Assembly (NCBI GenBank): GCA_009886115.1
Contig: VFJJ01000220.1
Coordinates: 1 to 34,999 of the forward strand
Direction: 5' to 3'
Length of the DNA stretch: 34,999 nt
Source: Actinomycetota bacterium
Lineage (GTDB): Bacteria > Actinomycetota > Acidimicrobiia > IMCC26256 > VFJJ01
Shown here: positions 7,571-28,713 of the stretch, one piece after another
Numbering within the stretch: position 1 is the stretch's first letter
Layout: the number at the start of each line of letters is the position of its first letter
Position numbers and translations under genes: made by a program
The notes under the pieces: generated by a model
Told to the model about the DNA's origin: nothing
Databases searched by the model: none
Seen by the model: the letters and a program-made list of their open reading frames with translations, nothing else

Positions 7571-7620
7571 CCAACTGTCAGCGTGGCGGGCCGTATCCGG
7601 ACCCTCACGCTGACAGTTGG
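7571..7620. terminator. Perfect 15-bp inverted repeat after the MoxR-VWA pair
   Basis: CCAACTGTCAGCGTG (7571-7585) is perfectly complementary to 7606-7620 around a 20-base loop. It begins 11 bases after the VWA stop codon. There is no U-tract, so a rho-independent terminator of the actinobacterial tail-less kind is likely but not proven; an operator or mobile palindrome is possible. Confidence 0.55.
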
Positions 7621-7679
7621 AGGATGGGGAGGCCCGGGGTAGGGTGCGCCGCCGCTGCGTCTCCGCGAAAGGTCCCGCC

Positions 7680-8801
7680 ATGCCGCTCAGCCCGTTCGAC
7701 GAGTTCCTCGCCCACCAGACGTCGGAGACGTTCGACCATGTGGGCACGTCAGACCGCAACTTCTACGACCGCTACTACTTCAACATGCACTCGTCGAGCG
7801 ACGAGATCTTCGTCATCACCGGCCTGGGCCAGTACCCGAACCTGGGGGTGACCGACGCCTTCATCACGGTGTCGTTGGGCCACGAGCAGTTCACGGTGCG
7901 GTCGTCGCGCGAGCTGGGCTCCGACCGGCTCGACACCTCGGTGGGGCCGCTGTCGGTCGAGGTGATCACGGGTCTCGAACGTCTGCGGGTGCGGTGCGCG
8001 CCCAACGAGTGGGGCCTCGAGGCCGATCTCACGTTCACCGGGAGCGTCCCCGCCCTGGAGGAACCCAAGACCTTCGTCCGCCAGTACGGCCGCATCATCC
8101 AGGACGTGAGCCGCTACGCCCAGGTCGGCGTGTGGGAAGGCCGCATCAGCGTGGCCGGACGTACCTTCGAGGTGACTCCCGACCTGTGGAAGGGCGCCCG
8201 CGACCGGTCGTGGGGTGTGCGCCCCGTCGGCGAACGGGAGGCCCCGGGCATCCGGGCCCGTCAGCAGGTCGACGGCTACGGATTCCGGCACGACTGGATC
8301 CCGATGCAGTTCGACGACCACATGATCAAGGTCCAGATCGACCAGGACGGCGACGGGCACCGCCATCTCGAAGAGGCCGCCCGGGTCTGGAACCTGGGCT
8401 CGAACCGGGCGCCGGAGCACCTCGGCCGGCCCGAGGTCGACGTCGAGTACCTCTCGGGCACGCGCGAGATGCGGAACGCGACCGTGCGTACGTCGGCCCC
8501 CGACGGCACGCCCATCGTCGTGAAGAACACCCCGCTGCGCACCCTGTACCTGGCGGCCGGGTCGGGCTACGTGAACGACGGCACCTGGGGTCACGGCGTG
8601 TACCAGGGCGCCCTCAAGGTCGAGGGCCTCACCCACGACCTGAGCGACCCCGAGGTCCGTCGGAGTTACGCCATCCTCAACGAGACCTTGTGTCGCTTCG
8701 AGATGGCCACCGGCGAGGTCGGCTACGGAATGCACGAGAACATGCTCATGGGCGTCTACAAGCCGACAGGCTTCCTGACCCCCGAAACCGTCGCTCCCTA
8801 A
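7680..8801 (+). CDS. Lipocalin-like (AttH/CrtC/DUF7064-7065 type) protein, copy A
   Basis: A 373-residue protein I recognise only as one of a group common beside P450 genes in actinobacteria, with suggested similarity to AttH/CrtC (carotenoid 1,2-hydratase) lipocalin-fold proteins. Visible features are SDRNFYDRYYFNMH at the N-terminus, alternating beta-strand patterns (VGVWEGRISVAGRTFEV), a central GARDRSWGVRPV and a C-terminal GEVGYGMHENMLMGVYKP. The paralogue at 18237-19427 shares the equivalent YRDHSWGVR and VGYGIMESIIGGVWP blocks. ATG 7680 is preferred; an in-frame upstream start at 7617 would overlap the inverted repeat. It is convergent with the ferredoxin gene. Catalytic activity is unproven. 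Confidence 0.7.
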   Translation: MPLSPFDEFLAHQTSETFDHVGTSDRNFYDRYYFNMHSSSDEIFVITGLGQYPNLGVTDAFITVSLGHEQFTVRSSRELGSDRLDTSVGPLSVEVITGLERLRVRCAPNEWGLEADLTFTGSVPALEEPKTFVRQYGRIIQDVSRYAQVGVWEGRISVAGRTFEVTPDLWKGARDRSWGVRPVGEREAPGIRARQQVDGYGFRHDWIPMQFDDHMIKVQIDQDGDGHRHLEEAARVWNLGSNRAPEHLGRPEVDVEYLSGTREMRNATVRTSAPDGTPIVVKNTPLRTLYLAAGSGYVNDGTWGHGVYQGALKVEGLTHDLSDPEVRRSYAILNETLCRFEMATGEVGYGMHENMLMGVYKPTGFLTPETVAP

Positions 8802-10465: not shown

Positions 10466-11527
10466 TCAGCGGGTGGAGCGCAAGGCGGTGAGCATCTTGA
10501 CGAAGTGCTCGGCCCGCCAGCCATCCTGATCTTCGCCCCAGCCGATCTGGCCGTCGTACTCCCAACGCATCAAGGCGTTGGCGCCCGACGCGTGCTCGCA
10601 CATGTGACTGAGCGCAAACCCTTCGGCCTCCATCGTCCGCCCGGTCACGTCGACGAGCGCGACCTCCATGTGGGCGCTCCAGCCCGTGTTCGGGTCGCGG
10701 AAGTTCCGCATCCGGCTCCTCGACGGGTCGAGCCGCTCGAACACCCCGTCCTTGAGCAACCAGCCCACGTTCAACGGCGACCATCCGGCAGCGTCGCCGT
10801 CCTGCGGACGCACGAAGCTCAAGAAGCCCGTCCGGGCGCCGGTGTGGCCGAAGATGTACTGGATGCGGCCACGGCCCCGCTCGCGTTCGATCTCGCGCCA
10901 GCGAGGACCCCCCGGATGGGCCACCCGGTGCTCGCCCCGCAGGTGCTCGGGCTTGCGACTCTGGGCGTGATGCCCACCGCGTGGCCCCCAGGTGCGATCA
11001 CGCACCGAATGACAGTCGATCGCGATGCGCTCGCCGTGCAACACCAACTCGCCGGTGACGTGCCCGAGCTGGTCGAGATGCGGGTTGTGCATGATCGGCG
11101 CCTGTCCGGGCGTGAACCGGTGGGGCGGATGGACGCTCCGGTGCTCAAGCTCGATCGCGAAGTCGGCCTCCGCGTCGCGGTACGCCACGCGGTAGTGCAT
11201 CAGCGGCTCGAGCATCTTCACGCTGAAGCCACCCGCCGGGAACGTGATGTCGCGCAGATCGGGGTCGGGCGGCATCGGCACGTCGGGCACGATCTTGTAG
11301 TACGCCAAGCGGCCCGGATCGGCACCTCGGGGGTCCCACACGAACACCCGCCACGTGACCTCGTGACGGTTGCTGTGGTAGCCGGCATGGAGCCACGCGC
11401 CGATGCGGCGCTCGGGGATGTTCAACGACCACCACGTGGTCTCGAGCTCGAACGGATCGTCCGACACGGCATGGTAGGTGTCGTCGTCGGGGACGAACGG
11501 CGTGTCCTCGGTCACCGGCTTCGGCAT
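10466..11527 (-). CDS. Lipocalin-like (AttH/CrtC/DUF7064-7065 type) protein, copy B
   Basis: A 353-residue protein, first gene of a likely operon with the P450 and ferredoxin. It has the same outline as the copies at 7680 and 18237: an N-terminal beta-rich part (ETTWWSLNIPERRIGAWLHA), a middle VRDRTWGPRGGH block equivalent to the RSWGVR/HSWGVR blocks of the other two, and a C-terminal half ending in MRWEYDGQIGWGEDQDGW. ALMRWEYDG and GWGEDQDGW resemble DUF7064-type C-termini. The start ATG 11525-11527 follows AAGGGGAGCC. The role is unknown; a lyase/hydratase or a lipid-binding chaperone for the P450 substrate are both possible. Divergence from the other copies is large, so the family link is moderate. 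Confidence 0.65.
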   Translation of the reverse strand: MPKPVTEDTPFVPDDDTYHAVSDDPFELETTWWSLNIPERRIGAWLHAGYHSNRHEVTWRVFVWDPRGADPGRLAYYKIVPDVPMPPDPDLRDITFPAGGFSVKMLEPLMHYRVAYRDAEADFAIELEHRSVHPPHRFTPGQAPIMHNPHLDQLGHVTGELVLHGERIAIDCHSVRDRTWGPRGGHHAQSRKPEHLRGEHRVAHPGGPRWREIERERGRGRIQYIFGHTGARTGFLSFVRPQDGDAAGWSPLNVGWLLKDGVFERLDPSRSRMRNFRDPNTGWSAHMEVALVDVTGRTMEAEGFALSHMCEHASGANALMRWEYDGQIGWGEDQDGWRAEHFVKMLTALRSTR

Positions 11528-11584
11528 CGGGCTCCCCTTCGTCGCGCGCAGACGGGCGCTCAAGGCGTGGTCAGGCGCGCGTGG

Positions 11585-13219
11585 TCAGACCGTGAAGGTG
11601 TGGACGTCGACGAACTCGCCGAGGCCACCGGCAGCAACCTGGACGGTCCCCCGGAACGGCCCCAGCTCACGGCCGTCGACCTTGATCTCGACCGTGTAGT
11701 CCTGGGGGCCGACGCCACCCTCGCACTCCGAGAAGTAGTTGAGCTGGACAGCGTAGGTGCCCGTCGGAGCGCCGCCGGTGGGCCAGAACACGTTCTCGAC
11801 AGGCGGCGACACCGTCTCGATGGGGTCGCAGCCGGCGTTGGCGTCGACGTCGAGCGTCCCCCCGTCCGTGCTCGTCGGCTGCGCGAACGAGATGATCGAG
11901 CCGTCCGGGGTGGTCACGTACAAGTCGAGATCGGCTGTCGAGTTCCAGCGCAACGTGATCTGGATGTCGCCGGTGCCGAGCGCGACCGTCGTCGTGGTTT
12001 CTGGGCTCGTGGTGGTGGTCGGGACGGTGGTGGTGGTGGTGGTGGCAGGGGGCTCGGTGGTCGTGGTCGTGGGCTCGGGCACGTCCTCGTCGGACGAGCC
12101 GTCGGTGCCGACCGGGCGCACGAACTTGTCGCCCACCTCGGGATCGCCGAGGTCGACGAGCACGAACTCTGTCACCACCTCGATCGCGACGACCACCAGC
12201 ACCAGGCCAGGGTCGAACCCGTCCCAGGCATCACCGGTCAGCGGTACGCCGAGGGGCTGTGGGATCGGCGCCAGCAGTGGGTTGCCACACGCACAGCGGG
12301 CCCGGGGAACCCCCGACGGGTCGACGAGGACCGCGGTCCCCCGCTCGAGCACCGACTGGCGCGGAGTCGCCCGTCCGTCGCTGAAGCCGTGGTTGGTGAC
12401 GCGGGTGTCGTCGAGCAGCACGACCGGCGTGAGCGAACGGAGATAGTCGGGCACGGCCTCGGGGTCGATGCCCTGGACCCCGGCCCACGCGGCGCGCTTG
12501 TCGGGGTTGTCCTCGAGGAACGAGATCATCTGGCCGACGTCGCACTCGGCGTTGTCGCGGGTACCTCCGTAGAGCCCGGGTGTGGTGCCGGGCACGGGAA
12601 CCACCGTGACGACGGGGTCGGCCGTGTCGTCGGCTCCAGGTGTCGCCAAGCCCACGGCCTTCGACGGCGGGTTCGCGTCGCGAACCTCCTGCGCGAAGCT
12701 CGCTCCCGACGTCTTGGTGAAGGCATCGGGGCCCTCGACCGACGCCGGTTCCAGGAAGATCTCGCCGACCCCGTCAGCGGGCTCGGCTGCGTCGTCGCCA
12801 CCGACCACCGAGCCGACCACGAGGCCACCGGCGAAGAGCGCCACGCACAACAGGGCCACGAGCCACACCACGACCGGTCGGCGCCGACGGGCGTTGGGCT
12901 CGGGAACAGGGGCCCCGGCGAACGCGGGGTCGAAGCCGGGAGCCGGGTATCCGGCGCCTGCGCCGGGAGCCGGGTATCCGGCGCCTGCGCCGGGCCCGCT
13001 GACGGGGCTCGGCCAGGGCTGCGGCTGTGGGACCGGCTGCGGGATGGGCCCCTGCACGGTGGGCGGCGATGGCGCAACAGGCGGCGGCGGGGGTTGGGCT
13101 TCGAACGGGTCGTTCGACTGCACGCCAGCGTCGGCGACGACGTCGGTCCAGCGCTGGCCGTCCCAGTACCGGTACTCGTGCCGGCCCGTCGGGTCGGGAC
13201 TCCAGTTCGCCGGTTGCAC
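11585..13219 (-). CDS. Membrane-anchored DUF2510 / DUF6777-like / DUF2135-like protein
   Basis: A 544-residue protein in clear modules. Residues 1-30 (NWSPDPTGRHEYRYWDGQRW) are a DUF2510 motif. A Pro/Gly-rich cytoplasmic stretch with a 9-residue duplication (AGAGYPAPG) follows. One membrane helix (VVVWLVALLCVALFAGGLVV) lies near 115-135. The external part begins with a domain I recognise as DUF6777-like (TPGLYGGTRDNAECDVGQM, LLDDTRVTNHGFSDGRATPRQ, RARCACGNPL), known from actinobacteria and of unknown function. A Thr-rich linker leads to a C-terminal beta-sandwich (ITLRWNSTADLDLYVTTPDG, GTYAVQLNYF) resembling DUF2135/YfaP. A wall- or surface-exposed binding role is likely. It is a separate unit 57 bp upstream of the lipocalin-like gene. 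Confidence 0.75.
   Translation of the reverse strand: MQPANWSPDPTGRHEYRYWDGQRWTDVVADAGVQSNDPFEAQPPPPPVAPSPPTVQGPIPQPVPQPQPWPSPVSGPGAGAGYPAPGAGAGYPAPGFDPAFAGAPVPEPNARRRRPVVVWLVALLCVALFAGGLVVGSVVGGDDAAEPADGVGEIFLEPASVEGPDAFTKTSGASFAQEVRDANPPSKAVGLATPGADDTADPVVTVVPVPGTTPGLYGGTRDNAECDVGQMISFLEDNPDKRAAWAGVQGIDPEAVPDYLRSLTPVVLLDDTRVTNHGFSDGRATPRQSVLERGTAVLVDPSGVPRARCACGNPLLAPIPQPLGVPLTGDAWDGFDPGLVLVVVAIEVVTEFVLVDLGDPEVGDKFVRPVGTDGSSDEDVPEPTTTTTEPPATTTTTTVPTTTTSPETTTTVALGTGDIQITLRWNSTADLDLYVTTPDGSIISFAQPTSTDGGTLDVDANAGCDPIETVSPPVENVFWPTGGAPTGTYAVQLNYFSECEGGVGPQDYTVEIKVDGRELGPFRGTVQVAAGGLGEFVDVHTFTV
12938..12991 (-). repeat. 27-bp tandem duplication inside coding sequence
   Basis: Two exact adjacent copies of a 27-bp unit (12938-12964 and 12965-12991) encode the repeated AGAGYPAPG in the Pro/Gly-rich cytoplasmic linker. 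Identity at every base, including third positions, indicates a recent slippage or unequal-crossover event. It preserves frame. Confidence 0.85.
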
Positions 13220-15556: not shown

Positions 15557-16806
15557 CAGCGAGCGCCGACGTCCGGTCTCCGCGCCTCGGGTTGCGCGCC
15601 AACCTCGGCCAGTTCTCGTTGCTCGTCGGCGTCAACGCCCTCGTCGGTGGAATGATCGGCCAGGAGCGAACCGTCCTACCGTTGCTGGCGAAGGAAGAGT
15701 TCGGCCTCACCGCGTTCACGGCGACGATGACCTTCATCGTCGCTTTCGGGTCGGTCAAGGCCGCGACGAACTTCTTCGCCGGGACGCTGTGCGACCGCTA
15801 CGGCCGCAAGCCGGTACTGGTGGCCGGGTGGGCGATCGGGATACCGGTCCCGCTGATGCTGATCTGGGCACCGTCGTGGACGTGGGTCGTCGTCGCCAAC
15901 GTCCTGCTCGGCGTCAACCAGGGGCTCACGTGGTCGACGACGGTGATCATGAAGATCGACCTCGTCGGTCCCGAGCGGCGCGGGTTCGCCATGGGCCTCA
16001 ACGAGGCCGCCGGATACGGCGCGGTTGCCCTCACCGCTCTCGTCACCGGCTACATCGCGCAGGAGGCCGGGCTGCGCCCCGAGCCCTTCCTGCTCGGGCT
16101 GGCGTATGCCGGGCTCGGCATCGGGCTGTCGGCGTTGTTCGTTCACGAGACTGCCGGCCACGCCGCACACGAGGCTCGCAACCACACAACCTCATCAGCC
16201 GGTGGCAACGCCGACATGACGACCGGGGACGTCTTCCGCCTGACCAGCTTCCGAGACCGGGCACTGTCGTCATGCTCCCAAGCCGGTCTCGTGAACAACC
16301 TCAACGACGGCCTCGCCTGGGGCCTGTTCCCGATCCTCTTCGCCGCCCATGGCCTCTCGCTGGGCCGGATCGGGATCCTGGCGGCCCTGTACCCCGCCGT
16401 GTGGGGGCTCGCCCAGCTCTACACCGGCGGGCTCTCCGACCGCATCGGGCGCAAGCCGCTGATCGTCGGCGGGATGCTGGTCCAAGGCGCCGCGCTGGCA
16501 TGGATCGCAGCAACCGAAGGCTTTTCCCCGTGGGCGATCGGGTGCGTGGTTCTCGGCGTCGGCACGGCGATGGTCTACCCGACGCTGCTCGCCGCCATCG
16601 GCGATGTCGCCCACCCTCGTTGGCGTGCCCGCTCGGTCGGGGTGTACCGCCTGTGGCGCGACGGAGGATTCGCCGTCGGGGCGATCCTCGCGGGTCTCGT
16701 CGCCGACCGCTTCTCGCCCGTGGCCGCGATCTGGGTCGTCGCCGCGCTGACGGGACTGTCGGGCGTCGTCGTTGCGCAACGGATGTACGAAACGAAAGGA
16801 GCATGA
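15553..16806 (+). CDS. MFS transporter of the sulfur module
   Basis: A 417-residue 12-helix major facilitator protein. The inter-helix motif A appears twice (FFAGTLCDRYGRKPVLV and YTGGLSDRIGRKPLIVG), marking the two halves, separated by a cytoplasmic loop (GHAAHEARNHTTSSAGGNAD). VLLGVNQGLTWSTTVIMKID and GVYRLWRDGGFAVGAILAG are conserved cores. Its ATG overlaps the stop of the MBL-rhodanese gene (ATGA), so it is co-translated with it. In this context it may export sulfite or another product of persulfide oxidation, or import a thio-compound; the substrate is inferred from the operon only. Confidence 0.85.
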   Translation: MTASADVRSPRLGLRANLGQFSLLVGVNALVGGMIGQERTVLPLLAKEEFGLTAFTATMTFIVAFGSVKAATNFFAGTLCDRYGRKPVLVAGWAIGIPVPLMLIWAPSWTWVVVANVLLGVNQGLTWSTTVIMKIDLVGPERRGFAMGLNEAAGYGAVALTALVTGYIAQEAGLRPEPFLLGLAYAGLGIGLSALFVHETAGHAAHEARNHTTSSAGGNADMTTGDVFRLTSFRDRALSSCSQAGLVNNLNDGLAWGLFPILFAAHGLSLGRIGILAALYPAVWGLAQLYTGGLSDRIGRKPLIVGGMLVQGAALAWIAATEGFSPWAIGCVVLGVGTAMVYPTLLAAIGDVAHPRWRARSVGVYRLWRDGGFAVGAILAGLVADRFSPVAAIWVVAALTGLSGVVVAQRMYETKGA

Positions 16807-16869
16807 CCATGGGCCACGATCTGCTGGTCGATCCCGACACTCCGAGCGAGCATCTCCGTGAGCATCTCG

Positions 16870-17187
16870 GCCAGACCTCGCCCAGCGGCGTGGTCGGGCG
16901 GAAGGTCTGTGCGTTGGCGACGAGCCCGTCGACTCGCCCGAACGTCGCCACGGTGCGCTCCACCAAGGCGAACATGCCGTCGCGATCGGCGACGTTCAGG
17001 CACTGCACGAAATGGTCGGCGTCGAGCGCGACGAGCTCGCTCGAGAGCACGGCGAGTGGCTCTTCCCGACGGGCGACGGCCACGAGACGAGCCCCGCCCG
17101 TGCCAGGTGAAGCGCCACGCCGCGGCCGATGCCCTTCGACGCGCCGGTGACGATCACGACGCGGTCGCGTACACCAATTTCGGTCAT
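16870..17187 (-). pseudogene. Short-chain dehydrogenase/reductase pseudogene
   Basis: The start MTEIGVRDRVVIVTGASKGIG carries the SDR TGxxxGIG cofactor motif and continues through ALHLARAG. Near 17092 the frame breaks in a run of G (read on the - strand), where one added base would restore GARLVAVARREEP. The next frame continues with VALDADHFVQCLNVADRDG and FGRVDGLVANAQTFRP, then TTPLGEV, and ends about residue 105 of a normal 250. The catalytic S-Y-K part is missing. The truncated end abuts the 3' end of the sulfur module. It was divergent from the SnoaL-like gene. Confidence 0.75.
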
Positions 17188-17320
17188 CGTCGGACTCTTC
17201 CCGAAGCCGCCGCCGATCTCAAGTTGGCGTGGTCGGCGCTTCGGGCCTTCGACCTCCGTAGGCTGGGTCCCCGACGGCACGAGTGCACGATGGCACGAGA
17301 TCGGATCGTAAGGGGACCTG

Positions 17321-17728
17321 ATGACGCAGGACCGGGAGGTTCGTGAGGCCATCGATCGGCTCTTGGCCGCCTACCCGCTCCTGCTCGATTCCGGCGACAT
17401 CACAGGCTGTGCCGAGCTCTTCGTCGACGAGGCGCAGTTCATCGTCAATGGAGAGGCCCGGGCGACAGGGCGCGACGGGGTGACCGCCATGTTTCAGCAT
17501 GTGGTGGACAGTGGTTCCTCGGGTATCCACCTGCCGGGTCCGCCCCTGGTTGAGATCGCAGGCGACGGCCTGACGGCCACGGTGTGGCAGAGCTTCCTCT
17601 TCGTCAGGAGCGGGTCGAACACGGTGGTGCGAGGCATGTACCGCGACGTGGCCGAACGTGACGGCGACCGGTGGCGGTTCCGCAGCCGCGACGTCGAGAT
17701 CTACCCGGGGCCCACACCCCGTGCCTGA
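17321..17728 (+). CDS. SnoaL-like / NTF2-fold protein
   Basis: A 135-residue single-domain protein of the NTF2-like superfamily. The N-terminal helix pair EAIDRLLAAYPLLLDSGDI followed by CAELFVDEAQFIVNGEARATG and the late strands RGMYRDVAERDGDRWRFRSRDVEI are the usual SnoaL_4 pattern. Such proteins bind or isomerise steroid-like or aromatic substrates, but many are only ligand-binding. It has a ribosome site AAGGGG before the ATG. It is intact despite decayed neighbours on both sides (SDR relic upstream, amidohydrolase relic downstream). Given the P450-rich setting, a hydrophobic ligand is plausible. Confidence 0.8.
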   Translation: MTQDREVREAIDRLLAAYPLLLDSGDITGCAELFVDEAQFIVNGEARATGRDGVTAMFQHVVDSGSSGIHLPGPPLVEIAGDGLTATVWQSFLFVRSGSNTVVRGMYRDVAERDGDRWRFRSRDVEIYPGPTPRA

Positions 17729-17732
17729 CCCG

Positions 17733-17808
17733 CCGGTCCAGCCGGCCGCCGGTCCAGCCGGCCGCCGGTCCAGCCGGCCGCCGGTCCAGCCGGCCGCCGG
17801 ATCAGCCG
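17733..17808. repeat. 16-bp minisatellite after the SnoaL-like gene
   Basis: CCGGTCCAGCCGGCCG is repeated four times without mismatch (17733-17796) and once degenerately (17797-17808, CCGGATCAGCCG). It begins 4 bases after the stop codon. The unit is self-complementary in part (CCGGCCG/CCGGCTGG), so long hairpins can form in RNA of either strand. It may serve as a bidirectional terminator between convergent units, or be a hypervariable locus. Confidence 0.85.
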
Positions 17809-17858
17809 AAGGCGCTGAGCCGCCCCTGCTGGTATCGATCGGCGAGCTCGATCGCCCA

Positions 17859-18229
17859 TCACTGATCGTCTCGCGCATTCAACGCCTCGACGTTCGCCGT
17901 CGGGCCGGTACGGACCTTCGGCGGGCGCGCCGTCGAGAGGGAGCTCGTAGCCCGAGTGGCAGATGACGAAATCGATGTCGGGGAAGGCCTTGGCCGAGGG
18001 GCCGACATCACGGGGCGAGCCGTTGTCGACGAGCCGGCTGATCCCCTTGTGAGCGCGTCGCGCACGATCTCGGGCGTCAGCTCCTCGATCGCCGCCTTCG
18101 AGAACACCCCGAGTAGGCGAGCGCTTCGTAGGTCCCGAACTTGGGCTGGAACACGATGTCGCCCGACGCCCGTCGGGCTGCGATGTCGTCCCAGGTGTCG
18201 TACAGGTCTGCGGGAAGGTCGTCGGGCAT
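17859..18229 (-). pseudogene. Amidohydrolase (family 2) pseudogene
   Basis: Pieces of one TIM-barrel amidohydrolase are split over several frames: MPDDLPADLYDTWDDIA and SGDIVFQPKFGTYEALAYSG, then FSKAAIEELTPEIVRDAL, then GISRLVDNGSPRDVGPSAKA and FPDIDFVICHSGYELPLDG. One missing base each near 18108, 18055 and 17900 would join them. Only about 120 of a usual 300-400 residues remain. The histidine of VICHSGYE is the family's metal-site motif. It begins 7 bases after the stop of the lipocalin-like gene, as if it once were the fourth gene of that operon. Confidence 0.65.
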
Positions 18230-18236
18230 CGTCGTC

Positions 18237-19427
18237 TCAGCCGTACGAGACCTGGTGGTCGGACTCCGCGGTGAGACCGAGCTCGGGCCACACGCCACCG
18301 ATGATGCTCTCCATGATCCCGTAGCCCACGGCGTCGCCTTCTCGTACCCGGACCGGGGTATCGCGGAACTGCCCGAGGCTGCGGAGGTGCTCGTCGTCGG
18401 AGCAGTCGGCGATGTACTCGCTGTCGAGGTGCAGCGCCCCCTTCCAGGCGCCGTGGATGTGGCCCGCCCAGCGGCCGTAGCCGGCGGTCTTCAAGAGGAA
18501 GCCCGAGTCGCCGACCGTCTCGACCTCGATGACGCGCTCGGTACCGTCGGCCATCGTGAGGCCCAGCTCGCCGCCGATCACGTAGCGGGTCCGTGGGTCG
18601 TAGTGGATGCGCGGCTCGACGTGACGGACGAGCGCCTGCGAGCCGTCGGCGTCGTTGACGTACGCGGACGTGTAGCCCCACACACCTTCCGAGAGGAAGA
18701 TGGCCGTCTCGTAACAGGTGCCGTCGGGACGCTGGAAGAACATCGGCGCCCACTTCATCGCACCCCGGGGCGGCTGCTTGGGGGTCGAGGCCGCCTCCGG
18801 GGCCGAGACCGGCGACGGGCGGCTGCCGATGAGATCGGGTACCGGAGCGCCGACGTTCTGGCGTACCCCCCAGGAGTGGTCGCGATAGCCGAACCACTCG
18901 TCGGGGCAGATCTCAAAGGTTTCGCCGGCCACGGTGATCGTCCCTTCGGCCCACCCACCCTGGTGGTAGCGGATGACGTCGACGTCGACCCGTCCGGTCC
19001 TGCGGTTGCGCACGAGGTTGCGCTCCTCGAAGAACGGCGGGGTCACACCCGTGAGCACCACGTCGAACGAGATCGGCTGCTCGTCGTTGGGCTCGAGACG
19101 GCACCGCGCCGACCGCAACGGATCGACGATCTCATAGTGGACTGGCCCCACCGCGACCTGCTCGGGCGCCGAGTCGAGCTCCCGGCTGGCCCGCACCGTC
19201 CATTGCTCGCGGCCGCGCGACACGCCACCGAAGCCGTCGATGATGCCCCGGTTGTGGTACTTGCCGATCCCGCAGTCGAGCTGGAGCGAGCCGTCGGAGC
19301 GGGCGATCGACAGCCAGATCTTCTCGGTCCAGGAATGGTCGGACTGCGAGACGGTGGCGAAGGTGTCGACGATCTGGTGGTTCAGGCTCTCGTCGGCCCC
19401 CCGCAAGGGCCCGATGTCACGGATCAT
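18237..19427 (-). CDS. Lipocalin-like (AttH/CrtC/DUF7064-7065 type) protein, copy C
   Basis: A 396-residue protein, last intact gene of the P450-kinase operon. It shares with copy A the strand pattern GGWAEGTITVAGETFEICPDE, the YRDHSWGVRQ block, GHIHGAWKGALHLDSEY (compare GHGVYQGALKVEG in A) and the C-terminal VGYGIMESIIGGVWPEL. The family is probably of lipocalin/AttH/CrtC fold; the role is unknown. Its ATG overlaps the kinase stop (ATGA). The much longer frame reaching 20387 only arises because the region antisense to the kinase stays open. A coding start at 19425-19427 is supported by the GGAGGAGACACC ribosome site. A hydratase or lyase acting after the kinase is a reasonable guess, no more. 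Confidence 0.7.
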   Translation of the reverse strand: MIRDIGPLRGADESLNHQIVDTFATVSQSDHSWTEKIWLSIARSDGSLQLDCGIGKYHNRGIIDGFGGVSRGREQWTVRASRELDSAPEQVAVGPVHYEIVDPLRSARCRLEPNDEQPISFDVVLTGVTPPFFEERNLVRNRRTGRVDVDVIRYHQGGWAEGTITVAGETFEICPDEWFGYRDHSWGVRQNVGAPVPDLIGSRPSPVSAPEAASTPKQPPRGAMKWAPMFFQRPDGTCYETAIFLSEGVWGYTSAYVNDADGSQALVRHVEPRIHYDPRTRYVIGGELGLTMADGTERVIEVETVGDSGFLLKTAGYGRWAGHIHGAWKGALHLDSEYIADCSDDEHLRSLGQFRDTPVRVREGDAVGYGIMESIIGGVWPELGLTAESDHQVSYG

Positions 19428-20572
19428 GGTGTCTCCTCCTGGCGGGCGCGTATAGCGGCCATGCGTTCCTCGTTGGCCATGACCGGTCCGGATTCGAGCT
19501 CGTCGGCGATCCCGAGGTTGGCGAGCGCTCCGGCAGTGAGGAAGTGCACGCCGTAGCCCATCTGGGCCAACCGGAGGTCGTCGGTGATCCCGGCGTCGAA
19601 ATGCATGGCGCCCACGAGCAGGATGGCAGCCATCTTGAACATCTGCATGGCGCGATACCACTCGCGGTGCACGACCGTGATCCCGCTGAGCTCTTCGTAT
19701 CGGGCGACGAACGCATCGACGTCGAGCGAGGCCGGCAGGGAGGTGAACGTGCCCGGCATCGTCCAGGTCACCTCGGCCCAGCCGATGTCGGCCAACGGGT
19801 CGCCGACGGTCGACATCTCCCAGTCGAACACGGCCGAGACCTCGCCACCCTCGAACGCGAAGTTGCCGGGCTTGGGGTCGCCGTGCACCAGCGTGACGAT
19901 GGCGGAGGCCTCGGGCCGGCGCTCGCGCAGCGCCGCTTCCAGTCGCTCGAGCGCGGGGAGCGGCCCCCGCTGCACCCGCCGGATCTCGCCGACCCAGTGG
20001 TCGAGCTCGCGGTCGAGGTAACCGTGCCCGTTGCCGAGCGCGTCGAGCCCGGTGGCGCTCAGGTCGACCAGGTGGATCGCCGCGAGCTGCTCCACCAGGC
20101 TCTCCGACATGCGCCGCACCCGGTCGGGCGCGGCGACGAGCTCGTCGGGGATGGTCCGCTCGTACACGGTCCCGCCGAGGCGCTCCATCACGTAGAACTC
20201 GCGCCCGAGCACCTCGCCGGTGCCCTCGTACCACAGCGCCCGCGGCGCCCGGACCGGCGTCGCCTCGAGGCCCCCGAGGATGGCGAACTGGCGGGCCAGG
20301 TCGTAGGGCTCGAGGAGGCCAGGGGCGGGTGGGCGCTGTCGCAGCACGACGTCCTGACGGTGCCCGACGCCGTCGCCACGCCAGCACACGGTGAGCGTCA
20401 GCGTCTCGGCCGAATGGCCGAACTCCACACGATCGAGCGCCTCGACGCGGACGTCGTCACAGCCCGGCAACTGCGTGGCGAGCCAGGCGGCGAGCCGATC
20501 GAGACGGTCGACGTCGCGATCGTCGCGATCGTCGCGATCGGAGTCGGGATCGGAGTCGGGATCGGCGGTCAT
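19424..20572 (-). CDS. APH-type phosphotransferase (ACAD10-like kinase)
   Basis: A 382-residue aminoglycoside-phosphotransferase-fold kinase. The catalytic loop is LVHGDPKPGNFAF (HGDxxxxN, 230-237), the metal-binding DWE is at 250-252 in VFDWEMSTVGDPLADIGW, and REFYVMERLGG is the hinge. This is the type found as the N-terminal domain of ACAD10/11, which phosphorylates hydroxyacyl-CoA. The ATG at 20570-20572 overlaps the P450 stop (ATGA) and its own stop overlaps the next gene, so all three are coupled. The start is preceded by 9- and 12-bp repeats that encode DPDSDPDSDRDDRDDRD; an alternative start after it cannot be excluded. A sugar-antibiotic kinase is unlikely in this context. Confidence 0.88.
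   Translation of the reverse strand: MTADPDSDPDSDRDDRDDRDVDRLDRLAAWLATQLPGCDDVRVEALDRVEFGHSAETLTLTVCWRGDGVGHRQDVVLRQRPPAPGLLEPYDLARQFAILGGLEATPVRAPRALWYEGTGEVLGREFYVMERLGGTVYERTIPDELVAAPDRVRRMSESLVEQLAAIHLVDLSATGLDALGNGHGYLDRELDHWVGEIRRVQRGPLPALERLEAALRERRPEASAIVTLVHGDPKPGNFAFEGGEVSAVFDWEMSTVGDPLADIGWAEVTWTMPGTFTSLPASLDVDAFVARYEELSGITVVHREWYRAMQMFKMAAILLVGAMHFDAGITDDLRLAQMGYGVHFLTAGALANLGIADELESGPVMANEERMAAIRARQEETP
20512..20563 (-). repeat. Acidic-tail codon repeats at the kinase N-terminus
   Basis: A 9-bp unit (CGTCGCGAT, three times at about 20512-20538) is followed by two 12-bp units (GGAGTCGGGATC). They encode Asp/Arg and Asp/Ser/Pro tandem residues at positions 4-20 of the kinase. Low-complexity and prone to slippage; all units are multiples of three. 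Confidence 0.6.
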
Positions 20573-21768
20573 CGGGTCGGAGTGAAGCGGATGCGGATGC
20601 GGTCGTAGGCCCGAGCGAACGTGGCCGGCATGATCTGCGGCTCGTCGGGCTCGACGAGCTGCCAGTCGGGTATGCGCCGGAGGAGCTCCTCGAACATCAC
20701 CCGAATCTCGAGGCGGGCGAGGTGCGAACCCAGACAGAAATGCGTCCCGAACCCGAACGCCACGTGCCGGTTGTGGGCCCGGATCACGTCGAGCGCGTCG
20801 GGATCGTCGAAAACCCGCGGATCACGATTCGCCGACGCGTACAACAGCAACAGCTCGTCGCCCTCCTTGATTCGGCGCCCGTGGAGCTCGTGGTCGACCG
20901 TCGCCGTGCGCCGCATGTTCAATACCGGCGATACCCAGCGGATGAACTCCTCGACGGCCGTCGTCGACAGCAGCTCGGGCTGTTCCCGAAGGAGCTGGCG
21001 CTGCCGGGGCTGCACAGCCAACTCGCGAATCATGGAGCCGACGACGGTCCGCGTCGTCTCGGCGCCGCCGTTCAGGACGAGGATCGTCTCCGCGATGACA
21101 TGACCGACATCCCAGCCGTCCTGGTGGACCCAGATCGAGATGAGGTCGTCGGCTGGAGCGGATCGACGGGCTTCGATGATCGCCAGCGTGGCCTCGACGA
21201 ACTCGGCGAAGACGGGGGCGATGCCAGGATGGGTCTCGTGCGGCGGGCCGGTCGGCGATGTCTGGCCGGCGAGCAACATGACCTGCTCGGACCAGTGACG
21301 CACCCGCTCCCACATCTCGCGCGGGTACCCGAGGACGTCGCCGATCATGATCGCCGGCAGGCGCGACGCGATCGCCTCGATCGCCTCGCACTCGCCGAGC
21401 GGCGCGACCTCGTCGAGGATCCCGGTCACGATCTCACGGACGTGGTCCTCGTGGCTGCGCACCGCATGCGGGGTGAAGCGGCGGGCCACGAGGTTGCGCT
21501 GCACCTGGTGGACAGGATCGTCCAGGTTGATCATCGACCGGTCGGCGCGCTGGTCGAGGTGCGGACGCGACCCGGCGAACGACGAGTACCGCTGACCGTC
21601 CTTCTCGACGGCGACGACATCGGCGTACCGCGAGATCGCCCACAGCCGCTGCACGGGATCCCAGAACACCGGCTGCTCGTCACGGAGCCACCGGTAGGCG
21701 TCCCACGGATCGACGTAGAACGCGGGATCGAGGACGTTCACTGCGGGCGTCGTGGTCGGAGTGCTCAT
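20569..21768 (-). CDS. Cytochrome P450 monooxygenase (CYP125/142-like group)
   Basis: A 399-residue P450, first gene of the operon. I-helix LNGGAETTRTV (the acid/alcohol pair is Glu-Thr, residues 237-238), ExxR EFIRW (274-278), heme loop FGFGTHFCLGSHLARLE with Cys345. The FGFGTHFCLG form and GGxETTR I-helix are typical of mycobacterial steroid and fatty-acid hydroxylases (CYP124/125/142). ATG 21766-21768 is chosen; the frame extends to 21861 but the added residues are low in conservation. No ferredoxin follows; it may share the one at 8839. It is followed by the kinase with an ATGA overlap. It is divergent from the acyl-CoA synthetase over a 200-bp gap without a clear operator. Confidence 0.9.
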   Translation of the reverse strand: MSTPTTTPAVNVLDPAFYVDPWDAYRWLRDEQPVFWDPVQRLWAISRYADVVAVEKDGQRYSSFAGSRPHLDQRADRSMINLDDPVHQVQRNLVARRFTPHAVRSHEDHVREIVTGILDEVAPLGECEAIEAIASRLPAIMIGDVLGYPREMWERVRHWSEQVMLLAGQTSPTGPPHETHPGIAPVFAEFVEATLAIIEARRSAPADDLISIWVHQDGWDVGHVIAETILVLNGGAETTRTVVGSMIRELAVQPRQRQLLREQPELLSTTAVEEFIRWVSPVLNMRRTATVDHELHGRRIKEGDELLLLYASANRDPRVFDDPDALDVIRAHNRHVAFGFGTHFCLGSHLARLEIRVMFEELLRRIPDWQLVEPDEPQIMPATFARAYDRIRIRFTPTR

Positions 21769-21968
21769 CGGCCGACCCCACCATGCTGCGGGCGTTCCCA
21801 CGGCGTGCCGCACGTCCCCATGCGATCCCCTCCAGCGGTGGTCGGGCTGCACGTCGGACACTACCTACGCCGGGCGGGCAGCTGTCGCCGTCGCAGCAAA
21901 CGCGTGCCTGAAACTCCAACGAACCCGGCGAGCGGGCCTCCACGATCACCATCGTGGTTGACTCAGTC

Positions 21969-23723
21969 ATGACCGCCATGAGCCGTGCCGATGCGGTGGC
22001 CGCGCTCACCAAGCCCGGCGCACCGTTCGAGATCGTCGAGACCGAGGTACGAGGGGTCACCGTTCGTGCCTTCGCCGGGGCGCCGGCGTCGCTGCGGGGC
22101 GTGCTCGAGAGCAGCCGGGCGCACGGAACGCGGGACTTCCTCGTGTACCAGGACGACCGCTACACCTTCGCCGACCACCTGTCGATCGTCGCCGGCCTGG
22201 CGCGCTGGCTCACGACCGAGCACGGCATCGGCAAGGGCGACCGCGTCGCGATCGGGATGCGCAACTACCCCGAGTGGATCTTCACGTTCTGGGCGACCCA
22301 GGTGCTCGGAGCCGTGGCCGTGCCGCTCAACGCCTGGTGGACGGGCGCCGAGCTGCGCTACGCCCTCGACGACAGCGGCGCCCGGTTCGCGGTCCTCGAC
22401 GGCGAGCGCTCTTCCCGGCTGGCGGGCGCCCTGGCGGAGCTCTCATTGCCGTCGATCGTCGTGCGTCCCGATGGCGAACCGGGCGCGGGCGACCCCGGCG
22501 CCGGCGCTATCCCCTGGGCCGATGTGTACGCAGGGCTCGACCGCTCGGCCGACCTACCAGCCGCGGTCGAGATCGATCCGGACGACGACGCCACGATCCT
22601 CTACACCTCAGGCACGACCGGCCGTTCCAAGGGCGCCATCGGCACGCAGCGCAACCACGTCACCAACTATCTGAACACCGCGTTCTCCGCGGCCGTCGAG
22701 CGGATGCTCGCAGCCAGCGCGACCGCGACGGTCGCGACGGGCGCGGTCACTCCGGGATCGGCGCCAGTACCGGCCGTCGTCGCACCGCTTCCGTGCTCGC
22801 TACAGACGTACCCGTTCTTCCACATCGGCGGGCTCACCGCGGTCTACATCTCGACGGGCTTCGGCACGAAGATGGTGCTGCAGTACAAGTGGGATCTGGA
22901 GGAGGCGCTCGAGCTGATCCAGCGTGAGCGGGTGACGTCGCTCGCTGCGGTGCCGACCATCCTGCGGCGCGTTCTCGAATCCCCGCTCCTCGACCGCTAC
23001 GACCTCTCGACGCTCGGCAACGTCGGCTCCGGCGGAGCGCCGGTGCCCCCCGACCTCATCCACCGGGTCGACGATCTGTTCGCCTCGAAGGTGACTCCCG
23101 CGAACGGCTATGGCCTCACCGAGACGACCTCCGCGGTCACCTCCAACCGGGGCCGCGACTACCTCGATCGGCCGACCAGCGTCGGGCGGACCTTTCCCGT
23201 CGTCGACGTGCGCGTCGTCGATCCGGCGACCGGGGCCGACCAGCCGACAGGCGCCACGGGCGAGCTGTGGTTCCGCGGGCCCAACGTGGTGCGGGGCTAC
23301 TGGAACCAGCCGGAGGCGACCGCAGCGGCGTTCACCGACGGATGGTTCCACTCCGGCGACCTCGGCCATGTCGACGACGAGTCGTTCGTGTACGTCGTCG
23401 ACCGGCTCAAGGACGTCGTGATCAGGGGCGGCGAGAACGTGTACTGCGGCGAGGTGGAGGCCGCGCTCTTCGAGCATCCGGCGGTGGCCGACGTCGCCGT
23501 CGTCGGCGTGGCGCATCGCGAGCTCGGCGAGCAGGTGGCCGCGGTCGTGCAGCTCGCCGACGGTGCGGTCGTGTCGGCTGCCGAGCTGCAAGCGCACGTC
23601 GCCACCCGGCTGGCGCATTTCAAGGTCCCCGAGCTCATCGTGTTCCGCGACGAGCCGCTGCCGCGCACCGCGACCGGCAAGGTGCTCAAGCGGGAACTGC
23701 GTGACGACCTCACCCGGTCATGA
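21969..23723 (+). CDS. Acyl-CoA synthetase (AMP-dependent, FadD-like)
   Basis: About 584 residues of the ANL superfamily. The phosphate-binding loop is TILYTSGTTGRSKGA, the aspartate-coordinating GYGLTETTSAV, the hinge DLGHVDDESFVYVVDRLKD, and the C-terminal lysine motif PRTATGKVLKREL. It would activate a carboxylic acid with ATP and CoA. A Gly/Ala/Pro-rich insertion (about residues 250-275) separates two core blocks. Two starts are possible: GTG 21954 or ATG 21969. Alongside the P450s it probably feeds an oxidised side chain into beta-oxidation; the acid is not known. It is followed by a GH3 enzyme with its own ribosome site. Confidence 0.92.
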   Translation: MTAMSRADAVAALTKPGAPFEIVETEVRGVTVRAFAGAPASLRGVLESSRAHGTRDFLVYQDDRYTFADHLSIVAGLARWLTTEHGIGKGDRVAIGMRNYPEWIFTFWATQVLGAVAVPLNAWWTGAELRYALDDSGARFAVLDGERSSRLAGALAELSLPSIVVRPDGEPGAGDPGAGAIPWADVYAGLDRSADLPAAVEIDPDDDATILYTSGTTGRSKGAIGTQRNHVTNYLNTAFSAAVERMLAASATATVATGAVTPGSAPVPAVVAPLPCSLQTYPFFHIGGLTAVYISTGFGTKMVLQYKWDLEEALELIQRERVTSLAAVPTILRRVLESPLLDRYDLSTLGNVGSGGAPVPPDLIHRVDDLFASKVTPANGYGLTETTSAVTSNRGRDYLDRPTSVGRTFPVVDVRVVDPATGADQPTGATGELWFRGPNVVRGYWNQPEATAAAFTDGWFHSGDLGHVDDESFVYVVDRLKDVVIRGGENVYCGEVEAALFEHPAVADVAVVGVAHRELGEQVAAVVQLADGAVVSAAELQAHVATRLAHFKVPELIVFRDEPLPRTATGKVLKRELRDDLTRS

Positions 23724-26401: not shown

Positions 26402-27580
26402 TCAGCCGTGTGACGGGGTGAACGCGACGGGCATGGCTTCGGGGCCTGAGATGAAGTTCGATGCCCGACGGGGAAGGGGATCGCCGGCGAGGTGGATGTC
26501 GGGGAGCCGCCGCACGAGCTCGTCGAACATGACCTTGAGCTCGATCCGGGCCAGCGATGCTCCCATGCAGAAGTGCGGCCCGAACCCGAACGCCAAGTGG
26601 GGGTTGGGGTTGCGCTGCACGTCGAAGCGATCGGGGTCGTCGAACACGGCAGGGTCTCGATTGGCCGACGGGTACATGATGATCACCTGCTCGCCGGCCC
26701 GCAACGTCTGGCCGTGGAGCTCGACATCGCGGGTGACCGTGCGGGACATGTTCTTGATCGGCGACACCCAGCGCAGCAGCTCCTCGACACCCGTATCGAT
26801 CGTGGCGGGATCGTCGCGGAGGATGGCCATCTGGTCGGGGTGGCCGAGCAGGGCGAGCATCCCGTCGGTCATGACGTGGCGGCTGGTCTCGTCGCCCCCG
26901 ATGAGGATCAGCAGGCTCTCCTGGATGATCGACTCGTCGTCGAGGCGCTCCCCGTCGATCTCGGCGTAGCACAGGATGCTCACGAGGTCGTCTTGCGGCG
27001 GCTTCGACCGGCGGTCGGCGATCACCCCGAGCTGGAACTCCCGGAATGCGAGCCCGGCCAGTGCGGCGGTGTGCATCGCATCGGGATCGTTGATGGTCGT
27101 TCCGCGGATCATGTCGTCGGACCAGTGGAGCAGGTCGTCGTACGACTCGGGCGGAAAGCCGAGCATGTCGGCGATGAGCAGGAGCGGCAGGGGCGCGGCG
27201 ATGTCCCAGACGAAATCGCACTCGCCGCGACCGGCCACCCGGTCGACGATCTCGGTGCACAGTCGGCGGATCGTCGCCTCGTGGTCGCGGACCCGGCGCG
27301 GCGTGAACCCGCGGGCGACGAGCTTGCGTCGACGGGAGTGCTCGGGATCGTCCATCGAGATCATCATCGGCAGGTGAAAGCCGTGTGGCCGTGGCGCCCG
27401 CTCGCTGGAGAACAGCTCCGGGTCCTTCTCGACGGCGAGCACGTCGCTGTAGCGGGTCAGGGCCCACACCTCGTTGGTGGCGTCCCAGTAGGCGGGTGCG
27501 TGCTCGCGCATCCATGCCCAGTCTTCGTAGGGCTGGCTGGCGTACCAGTGGCCGTCGAGGAGGTCGAACGTCTTGGTCAT
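26402..27580 (-). CDS. Cytochrome P450, CYP142-like (steroid C26/27 hydroxylase type)
   Basis: A 392-residue P450. I-helix LIGGDETSRHV (GGDETS 228-233), ExxR EELLR (266-270), heme loop FGFGPHFCMGASLARIE with Cys338. The stretches SPIKNMSRTVTRDVELHG, FDVQRNPNPHLAFGFG and the C-terminal NFISGPEAMPVAFTPS closely resemble what I recall of CYP142A1 of Mycobacterium, a cholest-4-en-3-one side-chain oxidase. I am fairly sure of the family group, not of the substrate. The ATG at 27578-27580 is preferred although the frame continues upstream. A perfect 17-bp palindrome lies 24 bases before the start. It is convergent with the GH3 gene. Confidence 0.9.
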   Translation of the reverse strand: MTKTFDLLDGHWYASQPYEDWAWMREHAPAYWDATNEVWALTRYSDVLAVEKDPELFSSERAPRPHGFHLPMMISMDDPEHSRRRKLVARGFTPRRVRDHEATIRRLCTEIVDRVAGRGECDFVWDIAAPLPLLLIADMLGFPPESYDDLLHWSDDMIRGTTINDPDAMHTAALAGLAFREFQLGVIADRRSKPPQDDLVSILCYAEIDGERLDDESIIQESLLILIGGDETSRHVMTDGMLALLGHPDQMAILRDDPATIDTGVEELLRWVSPIKNMSRTVTRDVELHGQTLRAGEQVIIMYPSANRDPAVFDDPDRFDVQRNPNPHLAFGFGPHFCMGASLARIELKVMFDELVRRLPDIHLAGDPLPRRASNFISGPEAMPVAFTPSHG

Positions 27581-27603
27581 GGCGTCCTGAATTCTCGAGA
27601 GAC

Positions 27604-27620
27604 GAGCGCACGGTGCGCTC
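27604..27620. promoter_or_regulatory. 17-bp perfect palindrome upstream of the CYP142-like gene
   Basis: GAGCGCAC-G-GTGCGCTC, two perfect 8-bp arms around one base. It lies 24-40 bases before the P450 start, in the divergent interval with the methyltransferase gene, as expected for a TetR-type repressor operator. The bound protein is unknown; it does not match the KstR consensus. Confidence 0.5.
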
Positions 27621-27738
27621 TCGGTGGGAACCGCGTGCCGTCGGAACGTAGCGGATGTCCCACGGGACCGACAGGACGGTCGCCAGGCAGGAGCGAGCGT
27701 CGCGCTCAGCTGTGGCGCGCGGCACGTAGTCTGCGACG

Positions 27739-28713
27739 ATGTCAACCTCGGTACCAGCGACGCCTCAGGAATTCCTGGCCAGTCCCCTGAACCAGACGCC
27801 GTGGTACTACAGCGTCGAGGTGTTTCCCGGAGTCGTCGCAGGCGGGTCGTTCCCGGACGACCTGGTCATGTTGCCCCGGCTGCTGACGCGTCACGCCGAT
27901 GTCGCCGGCCACTCCTGCCTGGACATCGGGAGCATGGAGGGGTTGCTCCCTGTGCTCTTGGCTCGCCGCGGTGCCTCGCGAGTCGTTGCCACCGATGCCA
28001 TCCCCCACTGTGCGCCTCGCATGGAGGCCATCAAGAAGTACTACGACGTGGAGTTCGAGTTCTCTGCGGTCGGGCTGCTCTATGACCTGCACAGGAAGCT
28101 CGCGCCACAATGCTTCGACTTCATCAACTTCTCCGGCGTCCTCTACCACGTTTACTCGCCGCTGATGGCGCTCGCGAGCATGCGCTCGCTCTTGCGGCCA
28201 GGCGGCCTGATGGTCGTGTCGACGAACATCGTCCATGACGATGGATACCGAGCGGAGTTCAACGCCGGTGGACGCCTGCAACCAGAGGCCAACACGTTCT
28301 GGTACCTCAGCGTGCCGCTGCTCGACTACATGCTGCGCATGCTGCGCCTGGCACCCATCGACTGCCTGCATTTCGAGCACGCCGGCCTGGGCCTGACCCC
28401 GGACGTGCCTGGCCTGCGGACGGGGTACATGTCGGTCCTGTGCCAAGCGCGCGACGAGCGACTTCCGACCGGCGGCGATGAGTACCTCGATTCGCTGCAG
28501 GTGCACTCCTGGGAGTTCAACTCCATGACCGACTGGCAGGCAGCCGACAGCCATCCGCGGTCGACGATCCGCGCCACCGGCCCGTACGACGGCGTCGTCC
28601 AGCGTGACGATCTCGACGCGATCGACCTGTGGGCCACGGTCCAGAACCAGCCCGGGCACGGCCCAGCCGTCGCTCGCGACGCCCACCAGTTGCACCTCGA
28701 CGACTGGGAGTGA
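27739..28713 (+). CDS. Class I SAM-dependent methyltransferase (CmoB/DUF1698-like)
   Basis: A 324-residue Rossmann-fold methyltransferase. WYYSVEVFPGVVAGG at the N-terminus and motif I SCLDIGSMEGLLPVLLARRG (near residues 60-79) are the pattern of CmoB-like and related actinobacterial enzymes. A later FDFINFSGVLYHVYSPL corresponds to motif IV/post-motif. CmoB itself acts on tRNA wobble uridine; this protein has a long divergent C-terminal part (DLWATVQNQPGHGP) and is more likely a small-molecule or sugar methyltransferase. ATG 27739 follows a short upstream gap. It is divergent from the CYP142-like gene and may be co-regulated through the palindrome. Confidence 0.8.
   Translation: MSTSVPATPQEFLASPLNQTPWYYSVEVFPGVVAGGSFPDDLVMLPRLLTRHADVAGHSCLDIGSMEGLLPVLLARRGASRVVATDAIPHCAPRMEAIKKYYDVEFEFSAVGLLYDLHRKLAPQCFDFINFSGVLYHVYSPLMALASMRSLLRPGGLMVVSTNIVHDDGYRAEFNAGGRLQPEANTFWYLSVPLLDYMLRMLRLAPIDCLHFEHAGLGLTPDVPGLRTGYMSVLCQARDERLPTGGDEYLDSLQVHSWEFNSMTDWQAADSHPRSTIRATGPYDGVVQRDDLDAIDLWATVQNQPGHGPAVARDAHQLHLDDWE

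Follow-up and report, generated by a model that had tools for sequence, protein, structure and literature searches.

This analysis concerns a three-gene operon on the reverse strand of a 34,999-nucleotide stretch of DNA (the window), which is one entire 35-kb contig, VFJJ01000220.1, of an Actinomycetota genome of the class Acidimicrobiia (5.4 Mb, 224 contigs, 95.6% complete). The operon encodes a cytochrome P450, a kinase of the APH fold and a homologue of 25-phosphosteroid lyase (25-PSL), and it is probably a module of catabolic type for a hydrophobic, isoprenoid-like compound, in which dehydration by the kinase and the lyase is associated with a P450. Sequence comparisons, structural models and gene neighbourhoods establish the protein families, the conservation of catalytic residues and the recurrent clustering of the genes. 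The genes and their junctions, in the order of transcription, are as follows.

20569..21768, reverse strand: cytochrome P450, 399 amino acids (aa), nearest solved relatives CYP142/CYP125
20569..20572, reverse strand: ATGA overlap of the P450 stop and the kinase start
19424..20572, reverse strand: small-molecule kinase of the APH fold, 382 aa, resembling 25-hydroxysteroid kinase (25-HSK) and Rv3168; catalytic D232, N237 and D250, alphaC Gln Q95
19424..19427, reverse strand: ATGA overlap of the kinase stop and the start of the lyase-like gene
18237..19427, reverse strand: Rv3169-family protein, 396 aa, 25-PSL homologue; RDHSWGVR motif, D183 equivalent to D176 of 25-PSL

Stop and start codons overlap in ATGA at each of the two junctions, CCCGATGACCG and CACCATGATCC. 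The P450 and kinase genes show the third-position GC bias typical of real genes, homology with CYP142A3 starts at the annotated ATG of the P450, and family matches are strong for all three proteins. A first-pass annotation, made from the letters of the sequence, had described this gene order (P450, kinase, lipocalin/CrtC-like protein, positions 21768 to 18237) with ATGA overlaps, and both junctions bear it out. It had also proposed that a hydroxyl is phosphorylated and then eliminated, by analogy with ACAD10/11, in no described pathway. The chemistry is strongly supported, although 25-HSK and 25-PSL are a better model for it than ACAD10/11, and the kinase–lyase pair is in fact described (PMC7411048, PMC8449060; PDB structures 9fsg, 9ft5, 9fzn, 9g2i and 9g4c). 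In the anaerobic sterol degrader Sterolibacterium denitrificans, 25-HSK phosphorylates a tertiary alcohol; loss of the phosphate yields an alkene, of which the allylic methyl is hydroxylated next (PMC7411048, PMC8449060, PMC11061730). ATP-dependent dehydration via a tertiary phosphoester was previously known from this one organism; the present data indicate that the kinase–lyase pair is widespread among actinobacteria and their relatives, frequently in several copies per genome and frequently next to P450s of the side-chain-oxidase kind. Our search of the literature for a P450–kinase–lyase set returned nothing, and while kinase–lyase dehydration is known, its P450-linked version, conserved in actinobacteria of aerobic type, looks undescribed in the literature searched.

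Homology of the third protein and of the kinase

The third protein matches NCBIfam family NF053593 (the Rv3169 family) over its full length with 357 bits, for a cut-off of 150, while its match to Pfam DUF7064 is under the gathering score. Its sole sequence matches in the PDB are the 25-PSL chains (E 3e-30). The AlphaFold model of the protein (pLDDT 89.8) aligns with 25-PSL (9fzn) with a Foldseek E of 1.2e-27 and a VIA Z of 38.9 (root-mean-square deviation 2.4 A, 329 residues aligned), and the next structural neighbours are AttH (Z 24.1), kievitone hydratase (Z 22.8) and pericyclases (Z ~20). The lipocalin/CrtC-like fold announced by the first-pass annotation is thus right: the protein shares the all-beta two-barrel fold of the CrtC/AttH/kievitone hydratase superfamily, but this match is much weaker than the match to 25-PSL, and the reactions of that superfamily differ.

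In an alignment of 91 family homologues, all the invariant residues are present both in 25-PSL and in the third protein. The Asp of the RDxSWGxR motif, D176 in 25-PSL, is kept as D183. The 25-PSL chain 9g4c, whose title names a complex with phosphate and alkene product, carries Asn instead of this Asp (position 176, in RDRSWG), and this chain and the PDB titles together suggest that Asp176 may be catalytic. Elimination, hydration and binding had all been offered as roles for the third protein; because of its homology to 25-PSL in sequence, fold and invariant residues, elimination is the best-supported of these, and hydration or mere binding is less favoured. In the full-text literature searched, 25-PSL appears only where a putative enzyme is mentioned. 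These results provide a testable function for the large Rv3169/DUF7064-7065 family and for Rv3168-like kinases.

The kinase contains the motifs HGDPKPGN and DWE, and its catalytic residues D232, N237 and D250 are invariant in the alignment. The top structural match of its AlphaFold model (pLDDT 93.9) is 25-HSK with ADP and 25-phosphosteroid (9ft5, Z 30.6), tied with Rv3168 and the Ralstonia kinase 3dxp. The alphaC residue is Gln (Q95), as in 25-HSK and Rv3168; in two kinase alignments 64 of 70 rows, the majority of them lyase-linked, have it as well. ACAD11, 3dxp and 9o56 have Glu instead, as do 13 of the 16 lyase-unlinked APH genes of the source genome. The exceptions are the three other lyase-unlinked APH genes, which have Gln, and a few lyase-linked kinases that lack it. 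As a mark of the 25-HSK type this Gln was derived in the present analysis and is not a published definition; it offers a simple way of separating lyase-linked from ACAD-type kinases. In a FastTree tree, whose deep nodes are weak, the operon kinase lies outside the strongly supported clade formed by 9o56, 3dxp and ACAD11. Judging from the alphaC residue and the position in the tree, the kinase is probably not of the ACAD10 type, and the label "ACAD10-like" given to it in the first-pass annotation is not borne out.

The operon and the 25-HSK/25-PSL pair have in common the kinase and lyase folds, the catalytic residues and the two marks alphaC Gln and RDxSWGxR. They differ in sequence (~25% identity for the kinase and 29% for the lyase) and in arrangement: the window genes form a single operon with a P450, whereas the Sterolibacterium pair works with molybdenum hydroxylases and has no lyase candidate near the kinase gene (PMC8449060). 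In the mycobacterial Rv3168–Rv3169 operon (PMC5340868; Rv3168 structure 3ats) the kinase gene also adjoins that of an NF053593 member, but this pair, unlike the window operon, has no P450 orthologue.

The P450 and conservation of the cluster

The signatures of the P450 are complete, with GGAETTR providing the acid–Thr pair of the I-helix, the ExxR motif lying in EEFIRW, and FGFGTHFCLG as heme motif. The nearest solved relatives are CYP142A3 and CYP125, and identity with CYP142A3 is 38.3% over 407 columns, full length. This is below the 40% identity customary for membership of a P450 family; the CYP142/CYP125/CYP124 monooxygenases are the closest solved relatives of the operon P450. Enzymes of this kind are isoprenoid side-chain oxidases, and CYP142/125-like P450s classically oxidise a terminal methyl. 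For the P450s beside lyases in the two other clades that were searched (L079 and L067), CYP125, CYP124 and CYP142 are again first or nearly first among the relatives. The relatives listed for two lyase-linked P450s also include vitamin D 25-hydroxylases, although others rank closer. P450 orthologues that are 72–76% identical adjoin the lyase gene in nine loci. The source genome has a large set of P450 genes, ~60, and one of them, at 26402–27745 on the reverse strand of the window, resembles the operon P450 (~321 bits). A close homologue of this second P450, in locus L069 (~633 bits to the best-matching window P450), adjoins lyase, P450 and kinase genes.

At E 1e-40 or better, the third protein has homologues in 46 of 296 genomes sampled from the class. 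Within 5 kb of 48 such loci, which are distant from that of the window, a kinase was found in 27 cases, a P450 in 16 and both in 15, while control stretches of the same genomes (twenty of 20 kb, 400 kb in total) contained 1 kinase and 2 P450s; the neighbourhood profiles were seeded from the window genes and trained mostly on the tested loci, and are biased in favour of these loci. With the Pfam densities of the source genome as background, 27 kinases are observed for 2.2 expected and 19 P450s for 4.5, a still large excess, although Poisson values overstate it because the lyase loci are mutually related. In the source genome itself, for which genome-wide counts were obtained by searches, 6 of the 30 APH genes adjoin the 13 lyase-family loci, and the two P450s at these loci correspond to about its own P450 density, so that the P450 excess is seen only in the many-genome test. 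The other neighbours of lyase loci (SDRs, acyl-CoA ligases, F420-dependent LLM oxidoreductases, TetR regulators and genes without a visible relation) do not point to a particular substrate. In L067 and L073 an acyl-CoA ligase gene directly follows those of the lyase and the P450 within one operon; the ligases differ between loci.

Clustering of orthologues is stronger evidence than these neighbourhood counts. In a survey of 80 named loci, which include lyases that are 67–75% identical, the three orthologues occur together in seven other genomes (loci L126, L128, L129, L130, L131, L132 and L135), those of Parafrankia sp. EUN1f, Pseudofrankia sp. BMG5.36, Frankia nepalensis, Frankia sp. AgB1.9, Pseudofrankia asymbiotica and two actinobacteria known from metagenome-assembled genomes. 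Identities in these loci are 67–71% for the lyase, 72–76% for the P450 and 55–63% for the kinase. The recurrent co-occurrence on which the first-pass annotation had staked its proposal is therefore found, both in the 15 loci of the class that have the two partners and in the seven orthologous triples. Most of the latter have the order lyase–P450–kinase, compared with P450–kinase–lyase in the window, and because clustering is conserved although the order has changed, it argues for a shared function rather than for mere inheritance of a block. In all five checked genomes that have it, among 28–108 P450 candidates, the P450 orthologue is single-copy and lies at the lyase locus; the Mycobacterium genome that has no P450 orthologue at this locus has none elsewhere either. 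Parafrankia sp. EUN1f, P. asymbiotica and F. nepalensis are named strains that carry the full module, in which it can be tested.

Order of the steps and alternative explanations

For the three predicted enzymes we infer reactions on an isoprenoid or steroid side chain. The kinase would use ATP to phosphorylate a side-chain hydroxyl that is hindered and probably tertiary, and the Rv3169-family protein, of CrtC/AttH fold and 25-PSL kind, would expel this phosphate to leave an alkene, with D183 playing a key part in its active site. The P450, which resembles the side-chain oxidases CYP142 and CYP125, would either make the hydroxyl first or, about as likely, oxidise a methyl beside the new double bond. 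After methyl oxidation, the resulting acid could be activated by an acyl-CoA ligase, for example the one encoded divergently beside the operon:

21954..23723, forward strand: divergent acyl-CoA ligase, 589 aa, nearest NCBIfam model steroid-24-oyl-CoA synthetase CasG

This ligase scores 466 bits against the CasG model, under its cut-off of 750, and is a possible downstream step. Both orders for the P450 are sub-cases of the best explanation.

In the order put forward by the first-pass annotation, the P450 would hydroxylate an unactivated, probably tertiary, carbon before phosphorylation by the kinase and elimination by the lyase. The P450 would then replace the molybdenum hydroxylase S25DH, and the net result would be a desaturation driven by oxygen and ATP. 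This order, which we hold tentatively and at somewhat less than an even chance, is favoured by the position of the P450 gene, first in the operon and overlapping the kinase gene, and by the need of the kinase for an alcohol. It also agrees with the recurrence of P450–lyase–kinase clusters, with the vitamin D 25-hydroxylases found among the more distant relatives of two lyase-linked P450s, and with Sterolibacterium, where a hydroxylase makes the kinase substrate (PMC7411048). However, gene order is not conserved among loci, and the solved P450s that come nearest oxidise a terminal position (C26 or omega), which would call for no later kinase and lyase.

In the reverse order, the kinase and lyase would dehydrate an existing tertiary alcohol, the P450 would oxidise the allylic methyl to an alcohol or acid, in place of S26DH, and the acyl-CoA ligase would activate the product. 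We hold this order as tentatively as the other and give it the same probability. It is favoured a little by the kinship of lyase-linked P450s with CYP142, CYP125 and CYP124, by the lyase–P450–ligase operons of L067 and L073 and by the divergent ligase of the window, and in Sterolibacterium the S26DH step follows elimination (PMC7411048). On the other side, the window ligase is outside the operon, and ligases vary between loci. We consider it less likely than not that the module is a stand-alone desaturation system of Frankia, Acidimicrobia and relatives, in which the P450 would use oxygen to hydroxylate a tertiary carbon of a non-sterol isoprenoid and the kinase and lyase, at the expense of ATP, would convert the alcohol to an alkene.

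Several observations weigh against a kinase–lyase dehydration linked to a P450 and acting on an isoprenoid or steroid side chain. Identities to 25-HSK and 25-PSL are low, and in phmmer searches 25-HSK is not the closest sequence to the kinase (9o56, 129 bits; ACAD11, 94; 25-HSK, 84). Relatives of the CrtC fold hydrate or cyclise instead of eliminating. The orthologous loci of Mycobacterium and Mycolicibacterium have the lyase and the kinase without the P450 orthologue. In the source genome, no canonical KshA was found (best KshA_C 113 bits, versus ~300 in mycobacteria), nor any Mce4_CUP1 or squalene-hopene cyclase (Frankia-group genomes have one of the latter), and thus neither full sterol breakdown nor an endogenous hopanol is backed. 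Finally, the third protein is not the best 25-PSL homologue of its own genome, since a second gene of the window encodes a closer one:

7617..8801, forward strand: second Rv3169-family protein, 44% identical to 25-PSL over 356 aa, full-length; no kinase adjoining

Given this closer homologue, the operon lyase is not the orthologue of 25-PSL and may have a different substrate, which is probably not simply a 25-phosphosteroid.

An APH-fold kinase also phosphorylates a hydroxyl, with subsequent elimination of the phosphate, in ACAD10/ACAD11 and in LvaA/LvaC, but there a flavin acyl-CoA dehydrogenase, working with CoA thioesters, performs the elimination (PMC11342911, PMC12440821), and the kinase has the usual Glu in alphaC. 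A route of this type in the operon, with phosphorylation of a 4-hydroxyacyl-CoA before elimination, would fit the phmmer scores, which are higher for 9o56, ACAD11 and 3dxp than for 25-HSK, as well as the CoA ligase that adjoins the operon. It is nevertheless improbable, as the kinase has Gln instead of Glu and lies outside the 9o56/3dxp/ACAD11 clade, as its partner is a 25-PSL homologue, and as the annotated proteins of the window include no acyl-CoA dehydrogenase. Very improbable, finally, is a third protein acting as a hydratase or cyclase, in the manner of CrtC, kievitone hydratase or the decalin cyclases, the kinase serving resistance or another pathway: AttH, kievitone hydratase and the pericyclases belong to the same fold superfamily, but the match to 25-PSL is far stronger and extends to all invariant residues, and the repeated pairing with a kinase would be left unexplained.

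Neighbouring genes and other lyase-family members

The features that flank the operon or belong to the lyase family elsewhere in the window are the following.

17800..18208, reverse strand: relic of an Amidohydro_2 protein, broken frames, non-working; matched pieces 17878–18045 and ~17807–17884
10466..11563, reverse strand: third family member, of DUF7065/DUF7064 type, upstream of another P450
9081..10346, reverse strand: P450 directly downstream of the DUF7065 gene

A relic amidohydrolase had been proposed to follow the operon, and comparison with an intact homologue, a 463-aa Amidohydro_2 protein of a related genome, bears this out: ~75 residues in two frames match positions 267–315 and 437–462 of the intact protein, with identities of 77.6% and 58%. 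A Pfam search alone did not recognise the fragments as Amidohydro_2. Promoter and terminator scans detected no sigma-70-like site and no terminator behind the operon, and the operator scan of the divergent gap gave one 7-bp inverted repeat. Another pseudogene, of an SDR, lies at 16575–17352 (reverse strand), its fragments in different frames, between an MFS transporter gene and a SnoaL-like gene.

The DUF7065-type gene and its P450 (9081–11563, reverse strand) make a second pairing of a P450 with a lyase-family member on the same contig; a DUF6777/DUF2510 protein gene (11585–13219, reverse strand) adjoins them. On contig C28 of the same genome, adjacent kinase and lyase genes (L014:8091-10415), with matches of 157 bits to Rv3168 and 152 bits to 25-HSK, are a more classical 25-HSK/25-PSL-like pair than that of the operon. 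At three further loci of this genome (L020, L021 and L022) DUF7065-type proteins adjoin APH kinases, two of which retain an acidic alphaC residue, and the pairing therefore reaches beyond the Rv3169 branch.

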